DNA of 64,000 bases from the NCBI RefSeq assembly GCF_921293095.1, contig NC_060257.1:58440968-58504967 (forward strand), read 5' to 3'. Position 1 is the stretch's first letter, and every line of letters begins with the position of its first letter. A program made the translations under genes and the position numbers. The notes below the pieces were generated by a model. It ran no database searches. It saw nothing but the letters and a program-made list of their open reading frames with translations, and was not told the origin of the DNA. Below are positions 13,701-31,700 of the stretch, piece after piece. The stretch is from Ischnura elegans (lineage: Eukaryota; Arthropoda; Insecta; Odonata; Coenagrionidae).

Positions 13701-16700
13701 ATTTACTTTTCTCTACTTATTCAGTTTAAGCCACAAATATTGACACCAGTGGCATAACTATGGGTGAGGGGATAGGTCCTCCTCCAAAGCCTCAGATAAA
13801 TTAAAAAAATGTTTAAAACTATTGTCTAGTTTTGACTTAAAATAACTGCAACTGCTTAAAGTACAATCTTTTGTGCCAAAATGATATAAAATGTATTTCC
13901 AGGCATGTGATTTTTCAAAAATTATACCAGATTTTGCCTGGGGGGAGGGTTCACCATCCCATCCCTCCCCAAAGACATATTCCTAGTTATGCCACTGATT
14001 GACACAACATTTTTTGCAATACTTTTTTCTAGTTTTTACTCTAAAGAGCTCTCCAGTGAGATTTTTTGCTGTCATAGGTGATAACCACATTTTTGTGTGC
14101 TAAATTAACCATAAGATCAGACATATGGTATTGATTTAGAATTTTTTTTACCACGTATATATTTCAATCCTAAATATTTTACTAAGAGGTGTTCGATATT
14201 AACCAATTATGTAATGCCCATTGGCAACCTGAGATGCCACAATTTTTGCTCATTTTTGAAAATTACTTCCTCCCCCAATATGCATCTTACACTACCAATT
14301 CTTTCCTTTCTGTACTCTCTACTCTCTCCTTTCTTGAGCAAGGTCGGCATTTTACCCTGCCATTAAACCTAATTATTCATATCTATGAGGTAGAGTTTGT
14401 GAAGGGTACACAAGTGGTCATTGTTGAGCTTGACATGGAAGTGTACACTCGTGCCTCTCATGATATGTATTGCATATTTCTGAATATTGTTGTGGTATGC
14501 GCATACGTAACATACCTATGCTTTTAATGCCACTGTGAAAAAGTTTTGCTGTTCATATATTGTACTCGTGATTTCTAAACTGTGCTGCGTTGCTACTAAA
14601 AAAAAACGTTGTTCCACTTGCAAAACATTTTTAAAATTATTTGTCCCGAAATACAGTACTTACCTATGGTGAGAAACATTCTAAATTTTGATGAAAATAA
14701 AAATAAAAATTCTCTGGGCATCAATGGGTTAAAAAAAAAGCTAAACCGATGGATCATTGCCTAGCTTATCTTTTTATGCTTGAATTTCTCTTGTATTGTC
14801 TTTATAAAATTAACATTATGAGTAGTTACATACACATTTTCTATAGTTTATTTCTTTATTGTATCATACATGCTTTATTTTTTTTGGATTAATCACTGGC
14901 TGTAATTTTCCTTCCATATGATAATGAACCAATATATCTTAAAGTTCCTTAACGTAAGTAAACCATAAATATTACAGACCTTATAGTAAGAACTATGTGG
15001 AAGAGGATTTATTTTTCAATATTTCTTGCCACTGAATTTCATGTGAATAATAATCTGGGAAAATATAATGCTCTAATGAATAAAAATTGATTTCTTGCCC
15101 CTTAACAATTGAATTTTGTAGCCAAATGCATGACTTTTATTGAGTTATTGTTTGAAAGTACATATACGTGTGGTGTGTGTAAATATTTTATTTTTGGAAA
15201 TTTTTCATTAAATTCTCTTTACATGCATGAAATTTTGGCATGTGGGTTAGGAATTTGTCATTGGTGCTCAGGTTAAATTTAAGAATTTCAGCAACCGTAT
15301 AAAATGAAATGCATATTAATTGAAACTTTCAACCAAGAAACCTGCAGACTGATTGGAAATGTGGAAAAAATCATGTACGACATGGAATAATTTTTTGAGA
15401 GGAAAAAAAAACCTCAAGGAAGACTTTTCCAGAAACGGGATAGCTAGACGTCCTTAGGATGACCATTGCTCCTGCGCATATACCATGGTAAGGTCAATGT
15501 TTTTCTATTATTATAATCATATTCATGCATTGTCCTTTCAGGTGCATTAGGTCACTTCTTAATGTGCTTCTCTGTACCCAGAAACACGACCACCATCTTT
15601 GATACGTTCTTGGGCGAGGACTCTGTATGTGCCATACATGGACTCCGCTTTATGGGCATGGGATGGATTATAATGGTGCACACTGTGTACTTCCTTTCGG
15701 ATTATTGTGGTGAGAACATCTGCTATTTGAAGTCACTTTTTTATTTTGTCATTGATAGAAAATTTCTATTATTGGTTGTTAGAAGTTTATATGAACCTGT
15801 AAAACCAGCTTATACAATTATGTAGAATATAGTACTTGGTTTCCATGGACACCCTTCCTTTTAAAGATATGATATCGATGGCTAAGTTCTAACTATGCGT
15901 ATCTCAAAAATAGGAGATTTTGAGGAGAGCAAATAAAAACGATTAATATTTGTTACTTGCACACTGAAAGTAAAAACCAAAAGTTCATAAAATTGAAACA
16001 GAAGCATTAATTTGCAAGCAAAGAGTTGTGTTTTGCTTGTATTTTACTTTTTTAATATCATTACACTTTATTTATGATACCTGTCTCAAACCGGCCGAAT
16101 TTGGGAATCGTGTTGTTAGAACTTAGCCATCGATATTTATTTCAAAGGGGAATTGTGCATTGGCATTGGACACTATATCTCTCCGGAGGGAGTATATTCA
16201 TGGAATCCAAGTTGGAGGGCAGTTTTTTTTCAATCATCGATCATTCATCAAAATCACCGTACAGGTGACTGGCGGGTACTGTCCAGGTTGGGCAATTATG
16301 CATCCTCCGCACCGCACCCTCAAGCCATTTCTAACCATAAGCTTTTAGTTTAAGATTAATAGCAAACTCATTAACTACACTGCCTCAATGGATTCTCCCG
16401 CCAAGTGTGCACTGCGGAGAAACACCCAGAAAACTCGCCGAATGACTTAAGCATTTACATGTCTGACCATTATGCCGATAAAAGAGAATTTTTTTAATGC
16501 ACTGTGGCTAGAGTGTGAAACATTATGTCCATTACCATTCAAAACAAAAGAGGAGACATGCTGACTTATGGAATTGTTCGGATCCATGACAACACCCATC
16601 ATCTCAGTGCTGATGCAGCCCAACTGCTCCTTGAGCTGTTTCAATGTGACATTTTCAATCATCTGCCGTGCAATGTCAGCATAGTGCCGTCTGACTTCCA

Positions 16701-19700
16701 TCTTTACACTGAAATGAAGGAGTGGCTAGGAAGGAAGCATTTTCAAACTGGCAATGAGCTTCAGGGCAAAGGCAAAATTCATAGGAAGTATTGGTGGCAA
16801 CATCCTATGAAGAAGGTATGCATAGGAAAGCTTGTCCACAGGCATGACCAACTCCTCAATCGCCGAGGCGATTATCTTGAAAGGATACCACAAGTGTGCT
16901 CAACATTTAGCAATGACATAATTTTTAATCCATCACTTTGCCTTGTGTTCATGACCCATCGGAGGTTGAAAAATAAACGGCCCTCATATATTTTATCTAA
17001 TTGTCCCCTATCCTAAATTTATGATCTGAAATTTTCAGACCTGGAACACAATGTTCTAGGATTGAACACATGGAACTGATATAGACAAATTCAGAAACTA
17101 ATGAAACTGGTATGGAACCAATAGGGAATTAATTTAGAATATATCAAACTGATTTGGAATGCATGGAACTGAATATGGGATCAGTCGGGGGCACATAGAA
17201 CCTATATAGAACACATTGAACTGGAATGGAAACATGTGGAAACTGAATGGTAAAAAATGGAACAATATATAGGGTAGCAGTACTAGGAGCGTGTGTAACT
17301 GGTATGGAATAGACATGAGACAACCAAAACTGGTCCTAAGCATATTAGTGTGTGAAGGAACAGGTAGAAAATAAGCATTAGGAACGTTATCTGTTTTAGT
17401 GGATGGATGTGAGGCACATTGCTATGGGTAAGTGTGGTATGGAATTAATCCTTTGCTCCTTTTAAGTGACATATCTGGTCCTCAGGTTCTGTACCCACTT
17501 TAAAATGACTTTCTATCCTGAAACTTCCACATGTTCCATTACAAGATTTCCAGTTCCATACAAGTTCCATATCTGAATTCTAGGTTTCAGATCAGTTTCA
17601 GATCTGATCTTGGTTTGGAATTGATGGGAGTTATTTGGTAAGGTCATCAATATATATGCACCTAGAATGAAATTAAGCATGAAGAAATAATTTACTATAG
17701 GCTGGATTTGAACCCAAATCTTCTGATTGCTTCTGATCATGTATGCTACCTGTTACACCATGAAAGCGTATAATGGTGGCATAAAATCAGGGGATTGGGA
17801 AATGTTAAATCTCTGGCCAACAATTAATAGTTTAATAGTTTATTTACTGACGGGATAACCACCCAATTACAAAAATGCACAAATTAACACAAGATTGAAA
17901 CATTTCCAATGCTCCCAAAAATACAGGAACAATCGCACAAACTTGCTGCAAAAACCAACAATAGAAAAAACAAACACAGCAGTCAAGAATAACAGATTGA
18001 ACCGTCACACATCTCTCAAACAGTGGAAACAGACACTATCACCATACACAAGAACAAATCATCCAAGTCATTGCACAAACAAAGGCAGCTTCCTCCTTAA
18101 ATTCTTTGGATTTAAATTAAAAAGGTCAATGTTACTACATTTGTAGTTAATGCTCCGCATAGTTCTGGTTAAGGGTGAGTGGAAGGCGTAATTTCTATTA
18201 GAATGAGGGAGTGAAAACATGAATGTTTGCCTAGTGTTTAAAATGGGGACATGGAAAGGGATCATTTCTACCAGATGAACAGAGTCAATGTCTCCATGCA
18301 GTAGACGGTGAAGGAATGTTATGTCCAGGTGTAATCGACGGGTTGCCAAAGGTAACAGATTAAGAAGGGATAGTGTTAAGTCATAAATAATAGGGAGGAT
18401 GTTAAATCTGTAGGATACTAATCTAATGAATCTGCGTTGCACACTCTCAATAGCTTTGATGTGAATGTTATAGAACGGGGACCATACAATAGAGGCATAC
18501 TCAAGAATAGGGCGGATTAAAGTGCAATAGAGGATCTTATAAGTATGAATATTATCAAAATCTCTTGAAATAATTGGTAATATGTTGACTGAATTTGAAT
18601 CCTTTTTAAAATTGGGTGCACATATCTACTTTAGTTCCCCTTGAATTACATTAATCATGTCATTCTCAGTGATTAATACTTATTCTCATCCTGAATTTTT
18701 TATTGTGCAGGACAATTATTTTCCAAAAATACATTTTTTCTATGTAAGTGGCTAGTTTCACTAATTGATGTGCATACACAGGTATTTATGTATAGTTGTT
18801 GCAATGTTCTTCTGTTGGAATCAATAACATTTGCACATAATGATTTTTGGAGTTGCAAAATTGACAATAGCTTTTGTGAAACTTCTTATGAATTTCTCTT
18901 GGGTTCCTGAAGGTTACCTATGACTTAGCATTCATGTTTTATTCACCTTTAAGACTATAGCTAATGTCTTTATTTGCATGCTTCTTGGACTTCATGCCGG
19001 GCTTTCATAAATTTCTTCGCTATAAGTGGCATGAATAAAACTATTTCAATCCAGCTAGCACAGGAGATACACTCTGCATCGGACATTTAGGATGAATGAT
19101 ATAATGCAGATGGAACCAACGTATTTCTCATTCTGCCACCTTTTAATGAATATAAATGCTCACTGATGATAAAATGGTTTTTGATTAGCTCCACTTTCTC
19201 TTGGGCTTGTTGACGAAATTTCCCCTTCTTCTTTGGGGACCTCTTAAGGGTGGAATGGTTCACACTTTACAAGGGGAGTGTCTCAAAACTGGGTCTCATA
19301 TTTCAATCAAGATTGTAGATTTGTTGTTGAGGTGGGGGATCAACTCCCAGGGCACTCATTAGACCTGTAAGTCCATTGTGCCAACCACCGATAATGGATC
19401 ACCCAAAGAGGCCTATGTCCTTAGTGAAGGACAAAAGGTCCCCAATGGGAAGATCTCTTACTTCCTTGGGCTCTATAAAAGGTGAGCTCAGGTGTCTATA
19501 TCGAGTCCTCATGATTGCGGGGCACTCGCATATTAGATGGGTGGTTGTTTCTTCTCCCATGTCACACCATCTACACCTATCTGAGTCTGTTATCCCCAGC
19601 AAATGCATATGTCTCATTACGTGATAGTGTCCCGTAAGCAGGCCTACTACAGTTCGCAATTGACTTCTGTCCATAAGGAGAAGTCTTCTCTCGAATATTT

Positions 19701-25700: not shown

Positions 25701-28700
25701 CTCTACTAACTAAACAAATAATTTCAGTACAATTCAAAAAACCAGCTCCATATTTTAATACTTGGGAGCAAAAAAAAAAAACAACATCAAAAAGCCACCA
25801 TGATTATCACAATCCCATTTATATTTTGTACTACCACTCACTGAACCACCGCCATGTACTGCACCATTGTGGATCTTTGAGTTCTTCGTATCCCTTTCCT
25901 CCCGTTCTCTTCTCCTCTCGTAGGCGCCTCCTTTTCTCTGCGATCTCTTCTTCTCCCTGCCGATCTTGAATTCTGCCGTATCTCTTCCTCTGCTCTCTCA
26001 ATACACCGCTAATTTAGTCTTTCTCCCGATCTTTCTTTTTAACACGTCTGCCTCCTCCTTCTCTCCATACACGACTCCCTGTTTCCGTTCACAACAATCT
26101 CCCCGTCCCTCACTACCATTGTTAGTTTTAAATTATATACAAACAACATGGTGGCTTGTTTATGTTATGTTACACTATGTAACAATGAAAAATGTATCAA
26201 TTTATTGAGTCACGAATACAAGTGAGTCGCACTCAGAGAATCGGCGAATCGTGATGGCTGCGGATTCAGTCACGGTTTTGCGCTGCGGCTGCTCACTCCT
26301 GTGGGCTCCGGGATGCTACTCTCGGAACAGGGCACCAAATCCCTAGGGTACCATTACCCTGCCGGTGCCAAGGGTCCTCCGCCTGTCTCCCTCCAGGCAT
26401 TGCTGCCTTTCAGCGGTAGTGCGCAATGATTTGAACGCTACATGGAGGATATACTTCTTTATGTTTGTCCTTTGTAATAAGAAACTAAATTGTTTGGCAC
26501 TAGGCACCAGAATTATTTATATGTACGTGTTCTTTGTCACTGAAGCAAATTCAAATGGATTTCAGTATCATTGAATTTTTATGTTTTATTTGCTCTGTTA
26601 CAGGTTAACTCCAACATACATGGTGGTGTTGGGAATTGTTGATATTAATATGAGTTGGTATAATAAAGTATCATTTTTCACAATGTCAGAAAGAGCAGAT
26701 GTGGTCTGTTCCAAATACTGGTGGAGAAATATCCTCTACATAAACAACTTCTTTTCTCGTGAGGAAATGGTGAGTCTTCATGACCAAAAATTTGGCAATT
26801 TTTGATTTTGCAGAATATATGTTTTTGAATGTGAGAAATTATTGCGTCTGTGTGAGCTGACTGGGTAATATGTGAATGTCAATCAGTGACATCTTCTGTG
26901 TCTATCATACTGATTTGTGTCATATAGCTTTGAATATGTTGATAACTAATACCTGTATACTTTTCAGTGCATGTCCTGGAGTTGGTACTTATCCAATGAT
27001 ATGCAGTTTTTTGTTCTGGGCACATTCTTGATGTTACTTTCCACCAGGTGAGATATGATTAAGTTCTCTAAAGACCTGGATTTACAGTACATGAACATGT
27101 ATGAGTTAATATCGGTTTGTGGGCAGGAACAGAACATGTGCAAATGCATGAACCAAATTATATCAGGTAGTATTTTCTGTTCATGCATTCGCACAAGTTG
27201 AGTGATTACACGGTGCATTTTGGCGTTCATTCATGGGTTCATACATTTAGACCAGTCGCGTAGCGAGGGGAGTCCAGCGGAGGGGAAAAACCAGCATACT
27301 GTACATAATTGCTTTGGCACTCTTGTCATTGGGCTGCTGTGTGCCGCAGGAAGGAAGGGATCTTGCTAAAACAGGATGCTCACATGTCTGATGCACTTAC
27401 ACTTTATTTTGTTGCCTCATGTACATATAATCAGTGACTTTTTGCGTAAACCATACCTTGATGTCTCAGAGTAACCCTCATGACTTAGTGCAAAGTGTTG
27501 TGGTTACTAGTAACTAGAAGACTTGGACCCAAAAGTAACTAGTGAAGAACAACTTTTAATGGAACCGAAATAAAGAGATGCACACTCAAAGAGACATCGG
27601 CAACGACTGGTTACCAGTGGCGCAGCGAGGGGGTTGTTTTGGGGGATAAAACCCCCCCCAGAGCTCACAGAAATTTTTAATCTAAATATATTTTACTTAA
27701 TTGGATTAATATTGCTTATAGAATAGTGTGGGGATTAATAAAATATCCCTCAGAAGACCGTAAAAATCACCATTTTGAACCATTTATCTTAATAATTTTT
27801 CCGGCGGAAGGCCTCCACACTAGGGTGGTGCGAAAAAACTCAAGTTCCAAATTTCGTGTCGTAATAGTGCGGAAAAGTTGCGATACGTTAGTACAAGAAA
27901 AACAAAAAAAGAATTATTAAAATCGGACGTCATCTTCCGATCCCGCAAAGCACCTGAAAAAATGACAAAAATGAAAAAAATTGTTTTTTTTTTCTCGTGT
28001 AAAAAAATTTAATTAAATTATTACCTTTTAACGCTGTAGCAAAAAATGATTACAAATAGCATAGGTTATTATTTATATATGCATATTTATGGTTTTTAAC
28101 TGTTATTACCGATCATACAAGATTATTAAAAATGTATAAATTTTGCAATTTCGCCTATTTTTCAGAGTTTTGTAATAATTACTTGAGGATAATTTTTGAG
28201 AAGTTTTAATTAGCTCTTTAGATCAAAAATGACAATAAAACTGGCCACTAGAATTGAAAGGCAAAATTGCACTTTAAAAAGGCAGCATGGTAACCCTATT
28301 GAAACCGAAAGTGAAGATGTTGAGGTTTTAAATGACGCAACGCAAAGTTCAACAATCAAGGAGAAATTTTGTGACTAGGAAGATTACATGCCTAGTACAT
28401 CCAAAAATATATAAATCACCATGGCAAATGAGGGTAAAATTCCAAAGTACAGCTTTTCATTGTGATCAATACGGGGTGTCTCACCGTACAGCTGCTGCTA
28501 TAGCATCAAGTGTACTTGTAGACATTGGTGTTATAACTGAAGAATATACTTCTAAGATGTAGAATTAAAAGGGAAAAGAAAAGTTTTATAAACGATTTAC
28601 ATCAAATCCATCTTGATATAGGTGAGCTACACGGTTATACTTTGACGGAAGGGTAGACAATACCATAGAAATAGAAATGATTGAATCCAAGGAGTACCGT

Positions 28701-31700
28701 CGGACAGTTATAGCGGAACACCATTCTCTAATAAAAGAACCGACTTTTGTGTATTTGAGTTATGTTTCTCCAAGCTCCGGGTCTGCTAAAGATATAGTGG
28801 TCTCCATACTATCTTATCTCTCTGATCAAGAAGTATCATTAGAGTTCTTAGAGTTAGTTTGCTGTGATAGCACCAACATCAACATTAGATGGAAAGGTTG
28901 CACTATTAGAAAGCTCAAAAAACACCAATGACACCCGCTGCAGTGGGCAGTTGGGTTACTGCATTTCATTGAATTACTTTTGTCATATTTTTCAGTATTT
29001 AGATGGTGAAACATGTGGCCAAAAATCATTTAGTGGGCCAATTGGACTAATATGAATGGTTATGGAAAGCTTCCAAACTGCATTTCCAAACAATTGAATG
29101 TGAAATTCTACAAGTTGATAGATACATTTTGAGCAAGGACCAAAGATATCTTATTGACATTAGTCAAGCAATCACAAGTGGCGACTTTCTGAATGACTTA
29201 GCAAACCGGGATACTGGACCATTTTCACATGCTAGATGCCTCGTGTGAACAGAGCAAAGGAAACCTCTCGATACATACCTGGATATTAAAAGAAAGTAGT
29301 TTTACCTGTTATTGAACGAAACTCTTAACTTTGATCACGAAGAGAATATATTGATGGCGATGGTTTTTTATTACAGAAGGCACATTAGAGAGCTAGGGCT
29401 AAAAAGAGTATTTAAAGCCAGACAGACTTAACCAAAAGGCAAACCTATCGTCAACTTCATTACTCCTACCATGAACTTCGAAATAACTGACCATATAGAA
29501 TTGATTGACTGGAATGTAGTCAAACTATCTACTCCACCTCTTCTTATGAGAATAATTACTAATGAAGAAATAGCTTCCTTCATTGAATCTGGCGATAAAC
29601 AATATTGGGATATTATAACTTCCCATATCACACGCAAGCAATGGAGCCGTGTGTGAAATTGGTAACGGAGGCATCCCTTAAGCTTTGTAGCTATCAATCC
29701 AGAGATGGATTTATTAGGGCTAATTCAAATCAAGGTCCATTATGTCAGACCTTACCACTAAATCGCAGTACAAAGTAGTTTTCAAAAGTTAAAATTTAAA
29801 AGAAGGACAAAAAATTTAAATATTGTAGAAGCAGTAACCCTCATTGGTTGGATGGATGGAGGGTGAGGGTAGAACTCAAAGTGCAGCCACCTCTCCCCGG
29901 TGAGTTCTGGGTTGTTTAAATATTGTTAAATCATATATAAACTAAGGAAGAGCTGCATAATCAAACATGTATTTTAGACTAAAATAATACCTTAAGTTAT
30001 TATGACACAACTCTGAAAAATCGGCTAAATTGCAAAATTTATACACTTTTAATGATCTTGTGCGATCAGTAATGACAGTTAAAAGCCATAAATATGCATA
30101 TATAAATATTACCCTATGCTATTTGTAATCATTTTTTGCTGCAGCGTTAAAAGATATTAATTTAATTAATTTTTTTTACAACGAGAAAAAAACAATTTTT
30201 TTCATTTTTGTCATTTTTTCAGGTGCTTTGCGGGATCGGAAGATGACGTCCGATTTTAATAATTCTTTTTTTGTTTTTCTTGTACTAACGTATCGCAACT
30301 TTTCCGCACTATTACGACACGAAATTTGGAGTTTGAGTTTTTTCGCACCACCCTACTCCACACCCACCACTCACCCAGGCGGATATGCAATACCCTCAAG
30401 CCCCTCAGTATTAGTTGTGCCTGAAACCCCCCCTAGCCTTAATTCCTAGCTGTGCCCCTGCTGGTTACAACAGGAAATTAAAGGTGGCTAGCAGTAAGCA
30501 TACATGCCACAAGTGACAGCACCACCACCAAGTTGCACTCATGCGCACTAGATGGCACCATGTACCCGTGAATGGTGAGGGTTATTTTAACTTCAATACA
30601 AAGCCCACTGTGGATTTAGTGGGAGGGGAACTAAGTCATGAGGTGCTTTGGTTCCAGATATCCTCAGTGCATCAAGGGTCAAGCGGCCAAAGTAGGGTGC
30701 TAACTCCGTGGGTGGGAGGAAGGGACGGGAATTGAAGTGGAAAGGGAGGACATTGGGCTTAGGTGGGTGGAAGAAGGAACAGGACGGAGAAAGCACAAGC
30801 AAAAGGGGACGTCCATTAATTACTTGAGGTGACTTTGACAATTTTTGGACACCCTCTTCTTCCCTATTAGTTTGATATTGTGAGATTTGACCTCTAATCT
30901 CACGTGAGATTGTTCAAAATGGGTATTTTTCAGTGGAAATATGTTAACTTATGCTTGATTGTGTTGGATTTGTTAAAACAAAAAGAAACAATTTTTAAAA
31001 TTATTTTATATTATATTAGTTGAGACTAGTGCTTAAGATTGGTGAGATTGTAGTCTAGATTCGCATTCTACACATTTCCTTGTGGAAAAAAAATTATGTG
31101 ATACTTGCCTCCATGTGAGATTGGGTGAGAATCAGCCTGACCCCCAACCTCCCCCCCTAAACGCCACACGTAATTAATGGATGCCCTGAAAGATGTGAGC
31201 ATAAAGTAATTGGTCGGTCAGTAATATCACAATGCCTATTACTTTACGCTCATGCTTGGTGTTAATCCTTCCTTAGTCCCTTATAATCCCAAAATAGGGT
31301 CACTAATTACGTAGACAGAAGCCACCAAGATGCTAGTGGTCCCTAAGTTGTCAGGTATTCACTGGTTGGCTTTCTTTGTAGGCAGTGGCATAGCCAGAAG
31401 GGGGTCCAGGGGGTCTGGACCCCCCCGAAATATAAAAACACAATTATTTTCCTTCAAAAATAAAACAGCATATTGAAAAATCATGAATTTATAGGATATT
31501 TCTTTAACAAACGAAGTTTTTTCGATTGTGAAAAGTGTTAAAATTAGTTTAAAACCCATTTTTACTTAGTACCCTGTTTTTCAAAAATTTTCCCCCCTGG
31601 TTTTGGACCCACCTGAACGAAATTCCTGGCTACGCCACTGTTTGTAGGAGTCAAGTCTTTAACTCCAAGGGTGTGATTTTATTGACTGAGTCTGTGCATC

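Follow-up and report, generated by a model that had tools for sequence, protein, structure and literature searches.

Which kind of transposase moves an element whose ends and target site duplications fit the hAT superfamily, and whose terminal inverted repeats (TIRs) extend over hundreds of bases? The question is raised by a 2,535-bp transposon at positions 27821..30355 of a 64,000-nucleotide stretch of the Ischnura elegans genome (Odonata; Coenagrionidae; RefSeq assembly GCF_921293095.1, contig NC_060257.1, positions 58,440,968 to 58,504,967 of the forward strand), hereafter the window. An initial annotation, made from the letters alone, had placed an element there and proposed that it links specific termini and a target duplication to a poorly described transposase-like family, one that occurs across arthropods. 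The element exists exactly at those coordinates, and the link holds over the copies of its family as well as in three other families of the same genome that retain a recognizable gene. We regard the element, which is non-autonomous and decayed internally, as probably belonging to a cut-and-paste group with hAT-type target choice and ends, and with TIRs of ~375–680 bp.

The start of the element, TAGGGTGGTGCG, is directly preceded by CTCCACAC (27813-27820), and its end, CGCACCACCCTA, is directly followed by a second CTCCACAC (30356-30363), i.e. a perfect 8-bp target site duplication. The TIRs, initially put at ~375 bp, align over 376 and 375 bp at 92.9% identity, and two overlapping blocks within them are free of gaps, one of 186 bp (96%) and one of 213 bp (87%); in the family consensus they measure 375 bp at 97.1%, the left and right arms differing at two positions within the first ~329. 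Three peptides quoted at the outset (VSHRTAAAIASS, DGETCGQKSFSGPIG and CCDSTNINIRWKG) are all readable in the window. Aligned one against one by tblastn with P0001, a protein of 742 amino acids (aa) from the same genome, the remnant is collinear with residues 238 to 717 (best E 1.6e-31). The parts are as follows.

27813..27820, no strand: left target site duplication CTCCACAC, fitting nTnnnnAn
27821..28196, + strand: left TIR, 376 bp, starting TAGGGTGGTGCG, 92.9% identical to the right arm
28416..28988, + strand: transposase remnant matching P0001 residues 238-433 (tblastn E 1.6e-31), in which LYFDGR has the candidate first D and CCDST the candidate second D, followed by a changed residue, and the CxxH region is degraded
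28984..29043, + strand: remnant matching residues 433-452 (YLDGETCGQKSFSGPI) in another frame (tblastn)
29114..29242, + strand: remnant matching residues 478-520, the RW motif region included (tblastn)
29266..29322, + strand: remnant matching residues 578-596 (tblastn)
29330..29545, + strand: remnant matching residues 599-668 (tblastn)
29617..29703, + strand: remnant matching residues 689-717, with HTQAMEP where the candidate catalytic E lies (tblastn)
29843..29922, + strand: conserved segment 3' of the gene that includes a covarying hairpin, the two arms of its 8-bp stem at 29871-29878 and 29901-29908
29981..30355, - strand: right TIR, 375 bp, finishing CGCACCACCCTA, placed by alignment to the left arm
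30356..30363, no strand: right target site duplication CTCCACAC

The genome (1.72 Gb in 110 contigs, window included) was searched at the DNA level for further copies, and from the best 40 of 551 candidate places the 39 beyond the window copy were taken with their flanks, a sample of best-scored places in which decayed copies are under-represented. Together with the window copy, 37 of these were usable (L039 and L046, with no readable end pair, were left out), and all 38 carry the same termini and a perfect 8-bp duplication. When lengths of 4 to 10 were tested in 37 copies, the match was perfect at 8 alone; L016 is the exception, its octamer ATATATAT being compatible with 4 and 6 as well. The duplicated octamers have T at position 2 in 34 and A at position 7 in 36 of the 38 copies, and both jointly in 33, against a background of 9.9% of the octamers in the window; nTnnnnAn is the target pattern published for Hermes (PMC2803484; PMC10368747). 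An exact-pattern scan for the ends TAGGGTGGTGCGAAAAA returned 491 occurrences genome-wide and none for the reversed control; nTnnnnAn precedes 374 of the 491, some of which apparently lie in duplicated blocks near contig ends, where octamers recur, so that not all are independent insertions. As a separate observation, L069 and places near many contig ends recur with equal score and equal target octamer, as if carried in subtelomeric duplications.

An empty site was available for a further copy, L070 (duplication ATGTCCAT), which sits in repeated sequence; its flanking open reading frame (ORF) pieces are LINE-like by eye, and the one piece checked had no Pfam match. A query of 220 bases, made by fusing the two flanks of L070 around a single duplication, returned 11 rows, of which six are paralogues that span the junction without the element over at least 217 of the 220 bases at 90-93% identity. 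Three partial matches span it as well (bases 1-194 at 90%, 84-219 at 89% and 93-216 at 75%), and the remaining two rows are L070's own flanks. The window family has thus been mobile, with a precise 8-bp duplication, mostly at nTnnnnAn sites.

The 38 copies diverge from their majority consensus by 1.3-2.8%, and the consensus gene is itself broken. The segments alignable with P0001 contain seven stops, which 30, 35, 36, 37, 37, 37 and 38 of the 38 copies share; five of these stops fall within the original frame by alignment, and two (consensus positions 1486 and 1540, in 35 and 37 copies) lie where differently framed segments overlap and may be outside that frame. Five stretches around the frame changes have a constant length in 34-38 of the 38 copies, and no copy has a forward frame longer than 170 aa without a stop. 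Since the copies are near the consensus, yet have the stops and frame breaks in common, the family multiplied non-autonomously, with transposase supplied in trans; it spread after its own transposase gene was already broken. Translating a consensus, as had been proposed, therefore gives no intact protein. Two copies carry a subfamily insertion of ~183 bp at consensus position 1703 (L068:2904-3088, L069:2628-2812), perhaps another nested element.

Relatives with an intact or recognizable gene were sought with an 84-residue query, an approximate composite of family members, and the best 150 of 797 candidate places were used. One of these, L073, has an open frame that encodes P0001, counted from the first ATG, and a sister, L076, is 97.9% identical to it over 3.25 kb and 97.4% by a further comparison; the frame of L076 is interrupted by two stops close to the C-terminus. 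Both elements measure ~4.25-4.26 kb, and their TIRs of ~380 bp are 99.2% identical. The ends read TAGGGCGGATCG, and the flanking 8-bp duplications are perfect (CTGTACAG in L073, TTACACAG in L076); the codons that differ between them, 17 synonymous against 20 non-synonymous, are too few to prove selection. Two further families encode a protein ~40% identical to P0001 between longer TIR arms: the C16 copy (L072) has TIRs of 559+120 bp, ends TAGGGGCGGTCATC and the duplication ATGTACAT, and the C4 copy (L075) has TIRs of 337+299 bp, ends TAAGGTGGGCCG/TAGGGTAGGCCG and the duplication GTATCCAT. A further copy, C5 (L077), belongs to the C16 family; its 3' end is damaged and its flanks show no clean duplication, so a perfect octamer flanks four of the five relatives examined, in all four in the form nTnnnnAn. 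The ends TAGGGCGGATCGNAAAAATCGA of the L073/L076 family occur 1,980 times exactly in the genome (control 0). Among the first 100 of these listed, we noted 34 pairs that face inward within 8 kb; the 20 pairs among these that span 2.98-3.10 kb suggest a second, larger non-autonomous family.

P0001 presents its motifs in the order D, D, CxxH, RW, ER, with D319, D393, C422/H425, W519 and E698 as candidate active-site residues. An alignment of seven members has 20 invariant columns, among them F318, D319, G320, R321, D323, C392, D393, G394, N398, L424 and H425. RW is invariant in all four rows of a further alignment, and the candidate E is kept in seven of the eight rows aligned beside P0001, the eighth being gapped there. 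Near the N-terminus, a CKC..CxC motif is clear in five of six rows (the sixth lacks one C), and this CxC..CxC is a putative metal-binding site. P0003, a true hAT of the same genome with a BED finger and the C-terminal hAT dimerization domain PF05699, served as comparison; its spacings D-D, D-H, D-W and D-E are 65, 22, 80 and 323, against 74, 32, 126 and 305 in P0001, so that D-D and D-E are near one another in the two proteins. P0001 also has an E followed by R close to its C-terminus; a true hAT of this genome has the same pair in its CERVF motif. The CXXH and DDE residues matter in Hermes and Kat1, and W319 matters in Hermes, whereas its counterpart in Kat1, W576, is not essential (PMC4763223).

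A second conserved feature, a ~60-nt segment 3' of the gene, is found in the window family and in 10 of 12 relatives (L071-L082, E up to 0.05; absent from L078 and L080), three of the ten matches being weak (E 2e-4 to 0.008), and it is recognizable even though the aligned proteins are just ~40% identical to P0001. In an alignment of 13 rows, near relatives among them, 97.1% of the cells of its 8-bp stem pair, compared with 17-50% in slid controls. Changes on both sides of a pair occur in six cells, in three of the eight pairs; shuffles give 1.3 such cells, and none of 500 attains six. Weaker measures are that 12 of 500 shuffles reach three such pairs, and that the number of further pair types does not exceed that of shuffles, 382 of 500 of which attain it. 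The C16, C5 and C4 copies have a second, inverted version of the segment at their 5' side, lying toward the long TIR's inner end. When one version was searched in the genome, at least 17 of the best 40 of 448 candidates lay within 3.5 kb of transposase matches, with 0.02 expected by chance, a lower bound that uses the best 150 of the 797 transposase candidates. The hairpin may either fold in the RNA, close to the transcript's 3' end, or serve as a subterminal binding site.

Comparison with named transposases and measurement of the duplications had been proposed as checks, and most outcomes were as predicted: termini and an 8-bp duplication common to all 38 usable copies, and no named transposase matched by P0001 in Pfam. 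PF05699 was found neither in P0001 nor in the seven aligned members, whereas the positive control P0003 matched it at 1.6e-21, and there was no match of P0001 to the BED zinc finger PF02892 (it has CxC..CxC instead) or to DUF659. BED zinc fingers are common in hATs, though not universal. Single-member matches among the seven (BOFC_N 0.002, DUF1048 0.0037, Baculo_helicase 0.024, Herpes_UL31 0.11, and CFAP298 in two) were taken as chance; pieces of the window family gave none, and read-through pieces gave BOFC_N at 0.045, a match whose 14.1 bits fall short of the cut-off of 25 and which is not usable. Searches of NCBIfam with P0001 (E up to 1) and of Rfam with the whole element (E up to 1) returned nothing, PHROGs gave two matches (0.22 and 0.51), and the matches in PDB sequence searches (0.57 and 0.36) were taken as chance. 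No relatives outside the host genome were confirmed in viral contigs, prokaryote genomes or phages; a true hAT used as query had no match in the viral contigs either. In the open-licence PMC text covered (listings, abstract starts and passages), no description of the group was seen; the terminus returned one unrelated aptamer paper, and the protein motifs returned none.

Mutator and Kolobok were among the named superfamilies set aside. Mutator elements make duplications of ~9 bp with a Mutator-like element (MULE) transposase, whereas the duplications here are 8 bp in 38 of 38 copies and P0001 has no match to MULE Pfam models. Kolobok targets TTAA, and the duplications here are octamers, mostly of the form nTnnnnAn.

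The best reading of these sequences is a divergent hAT-like group with long TIRs and a transposase that the profile libraries searched do not contain. TAGGG-type ends are Ac-like, and are shared by these elements and hAT. The 8-bp duplication at nTnnnnAn is likewise shared with hAT (Hermes, hobo, Ac and the domesticated Kat1). The order of the candidate residues, D, D, CxxH, W, E, matches that of hAT, and the D-D and D-E spacings are similar, the D-H and D-W spacings less so. The differences lie in the length of the TIRs (375-680 bp, as opposed to 17 bp in Hermes; PMC10368747), in the first motif of P0001, which is DGR and not DGW, in its N-terminal CxC..CxC, and in the lack of a Pfam match; nor could profile similarity be detected to the single true hAT used for comparison. 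Duplication length varies among hATs themselves, groups with 5-, 6- and 7-bp duplications being reported (PMC12730594). We do not claim formal hAT membership: the group is hAT-like in target choice, and probably so in chemistry. The initial statement that the element fits hAT was correct as regards target pattern and ends; a relationship of the protein to hAT was sought and not detected.

Several observations weigh against this reading. In Pfam (E up to 10), P0001 had a single chance-level match (CFAP298, 0.35) and none to a transposase model, and none of the seven aligned members had a transposase model listed. A PDB profile search listed plant receptor kinases alone (0.041 and 2.3, taken as chance), with Hermes and other hATs unlisted. 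Aligning the seven-member profile with one true hAT in hhalign gave a probability of 0.28 and a score of 18.7, a level that 26 of 100 shuffled sequences reached; the hAT side was a single-sequence profile and weak, which makes this result an absence of evidence. The distances from the second D to W and to H in P0001 (126 and 32) are unlike those in P0003 (80 and 22), W519 and E698 are outside the invariant columns (rows are incomplete or frame-shifted there), and the C of CxxH is lost from the window-family consensus. hAT transposases have an RNase H fold with an insertion domain between the second D and the E; a 98-aa fragment from the window, folded alone without an alignment, had a predicted local distance difference test score (pLDDT) of 43 and no usable fold. 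Among the elements read, none is autonomous with the TAGGGTGGTGCG ends of the window family, and 117 of the 491 exact ends are not preceded by nTnnnnAn.

The elements might instead represent a separate DDE superfamily, a possibility we hold tentatively and think rather unlikely. The hAT-like ends and the 8-bp nTnnnnAn stagger would then have been reached independently, by a transposase non-homologous to that of hAT beyond the RNase H core, and the group would be typified by TIRs of hundreds of bp, an N-terminal CxC..CxC and a structured hairpin, placed at the 3' TIR's inner edge or close to it, that acts in expression or end pairing.

It is improbable that a conventional, BED-type hAT transposase of the same genome, recognizable by Pfam, moves the element and that the unnamed protein is a non-catalytic passenger. 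Such enzymes are abundant (at least 150 scored of 1,723 PF05699 candidates, the longest open frame in the listed ones being 658 aa), and hATs too make 8-bp duplications (PMC4763223). Against the passenger, the unnamed protein is the one recognized coding content between the TIRs in the four families read (long open frames were listed, and a second gene is possible), and the candidate catalytic residues D319 and D393, as well as H425, are invariant in the seven members.

A place in the P superfamily (P element, Galileo), which is marked by a THAP domain and a P-type transposase, is very improbable. Neither TAGGG termini nor nTnnnnAn are known as P features, and P0001 has no match to THAP or P-element Pfam models at E up to 10. 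Galileo shares with these elements cut-and-paste transposition and the C/DxxH class, but has a P-type transposase. Its TIRs are likewise very long (up to 1.2 kb), and its duplications are of 7 bp with the consensus GTAGTAC (PMC2775673). Least credible of all is IS3EU/GingerRoot, whose TA..TA ends (TAYGG..CCRTA; PMC12730594) resemble the TAGGG termini here, but whose duplications are usually 6 bp (PMC12730594, PMC10045372) as against 8 bp in 38 of 38 copies, and whose transposase is IS3/IS481-related, P0001 having no integrase-type Pfam match.

On the favored reading of a divergent hAT-like group, P0001 would be an RNase H-fold DDE transposase (D319, D393, C422xxH425, W519, E698) that recognizes TAGGGYGG-type ends, excision would follow the hAT route with hairpins on the flanking DNA, and the ends would be joined with an 8-bp stagger. 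The window family would have been moved in trans by an autonomous relative, lost or unread, or by a cross-acting sister transposase. An unnamed protein family would thereby gain a job, as a transposase, together with a terminal signature and a target rule, with which unclassified repeats flanked by 8-bp duplications could be placed, and transposons recognized among the unnamed gene models of annotated genomes. This raises the question of why inverted repeats of hundreds of bp are maintained, given the 17 bp of Hermes. The covarying hairpin, without a counterpart in Rfam at E up to 1, is a concrete and testable part, and the intact open reading frame, with almost identical TIRs on either side, opens the enzymology to direct tests.

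Elsewhere in the window, without a Pfam match at E up to 0.01, two open frames resemble other transposons by eye: 16519-17013 (+ strand) is like a fragment of a mariner transposase, and 18071-18625 (- strand) like a fragment of a LINE.

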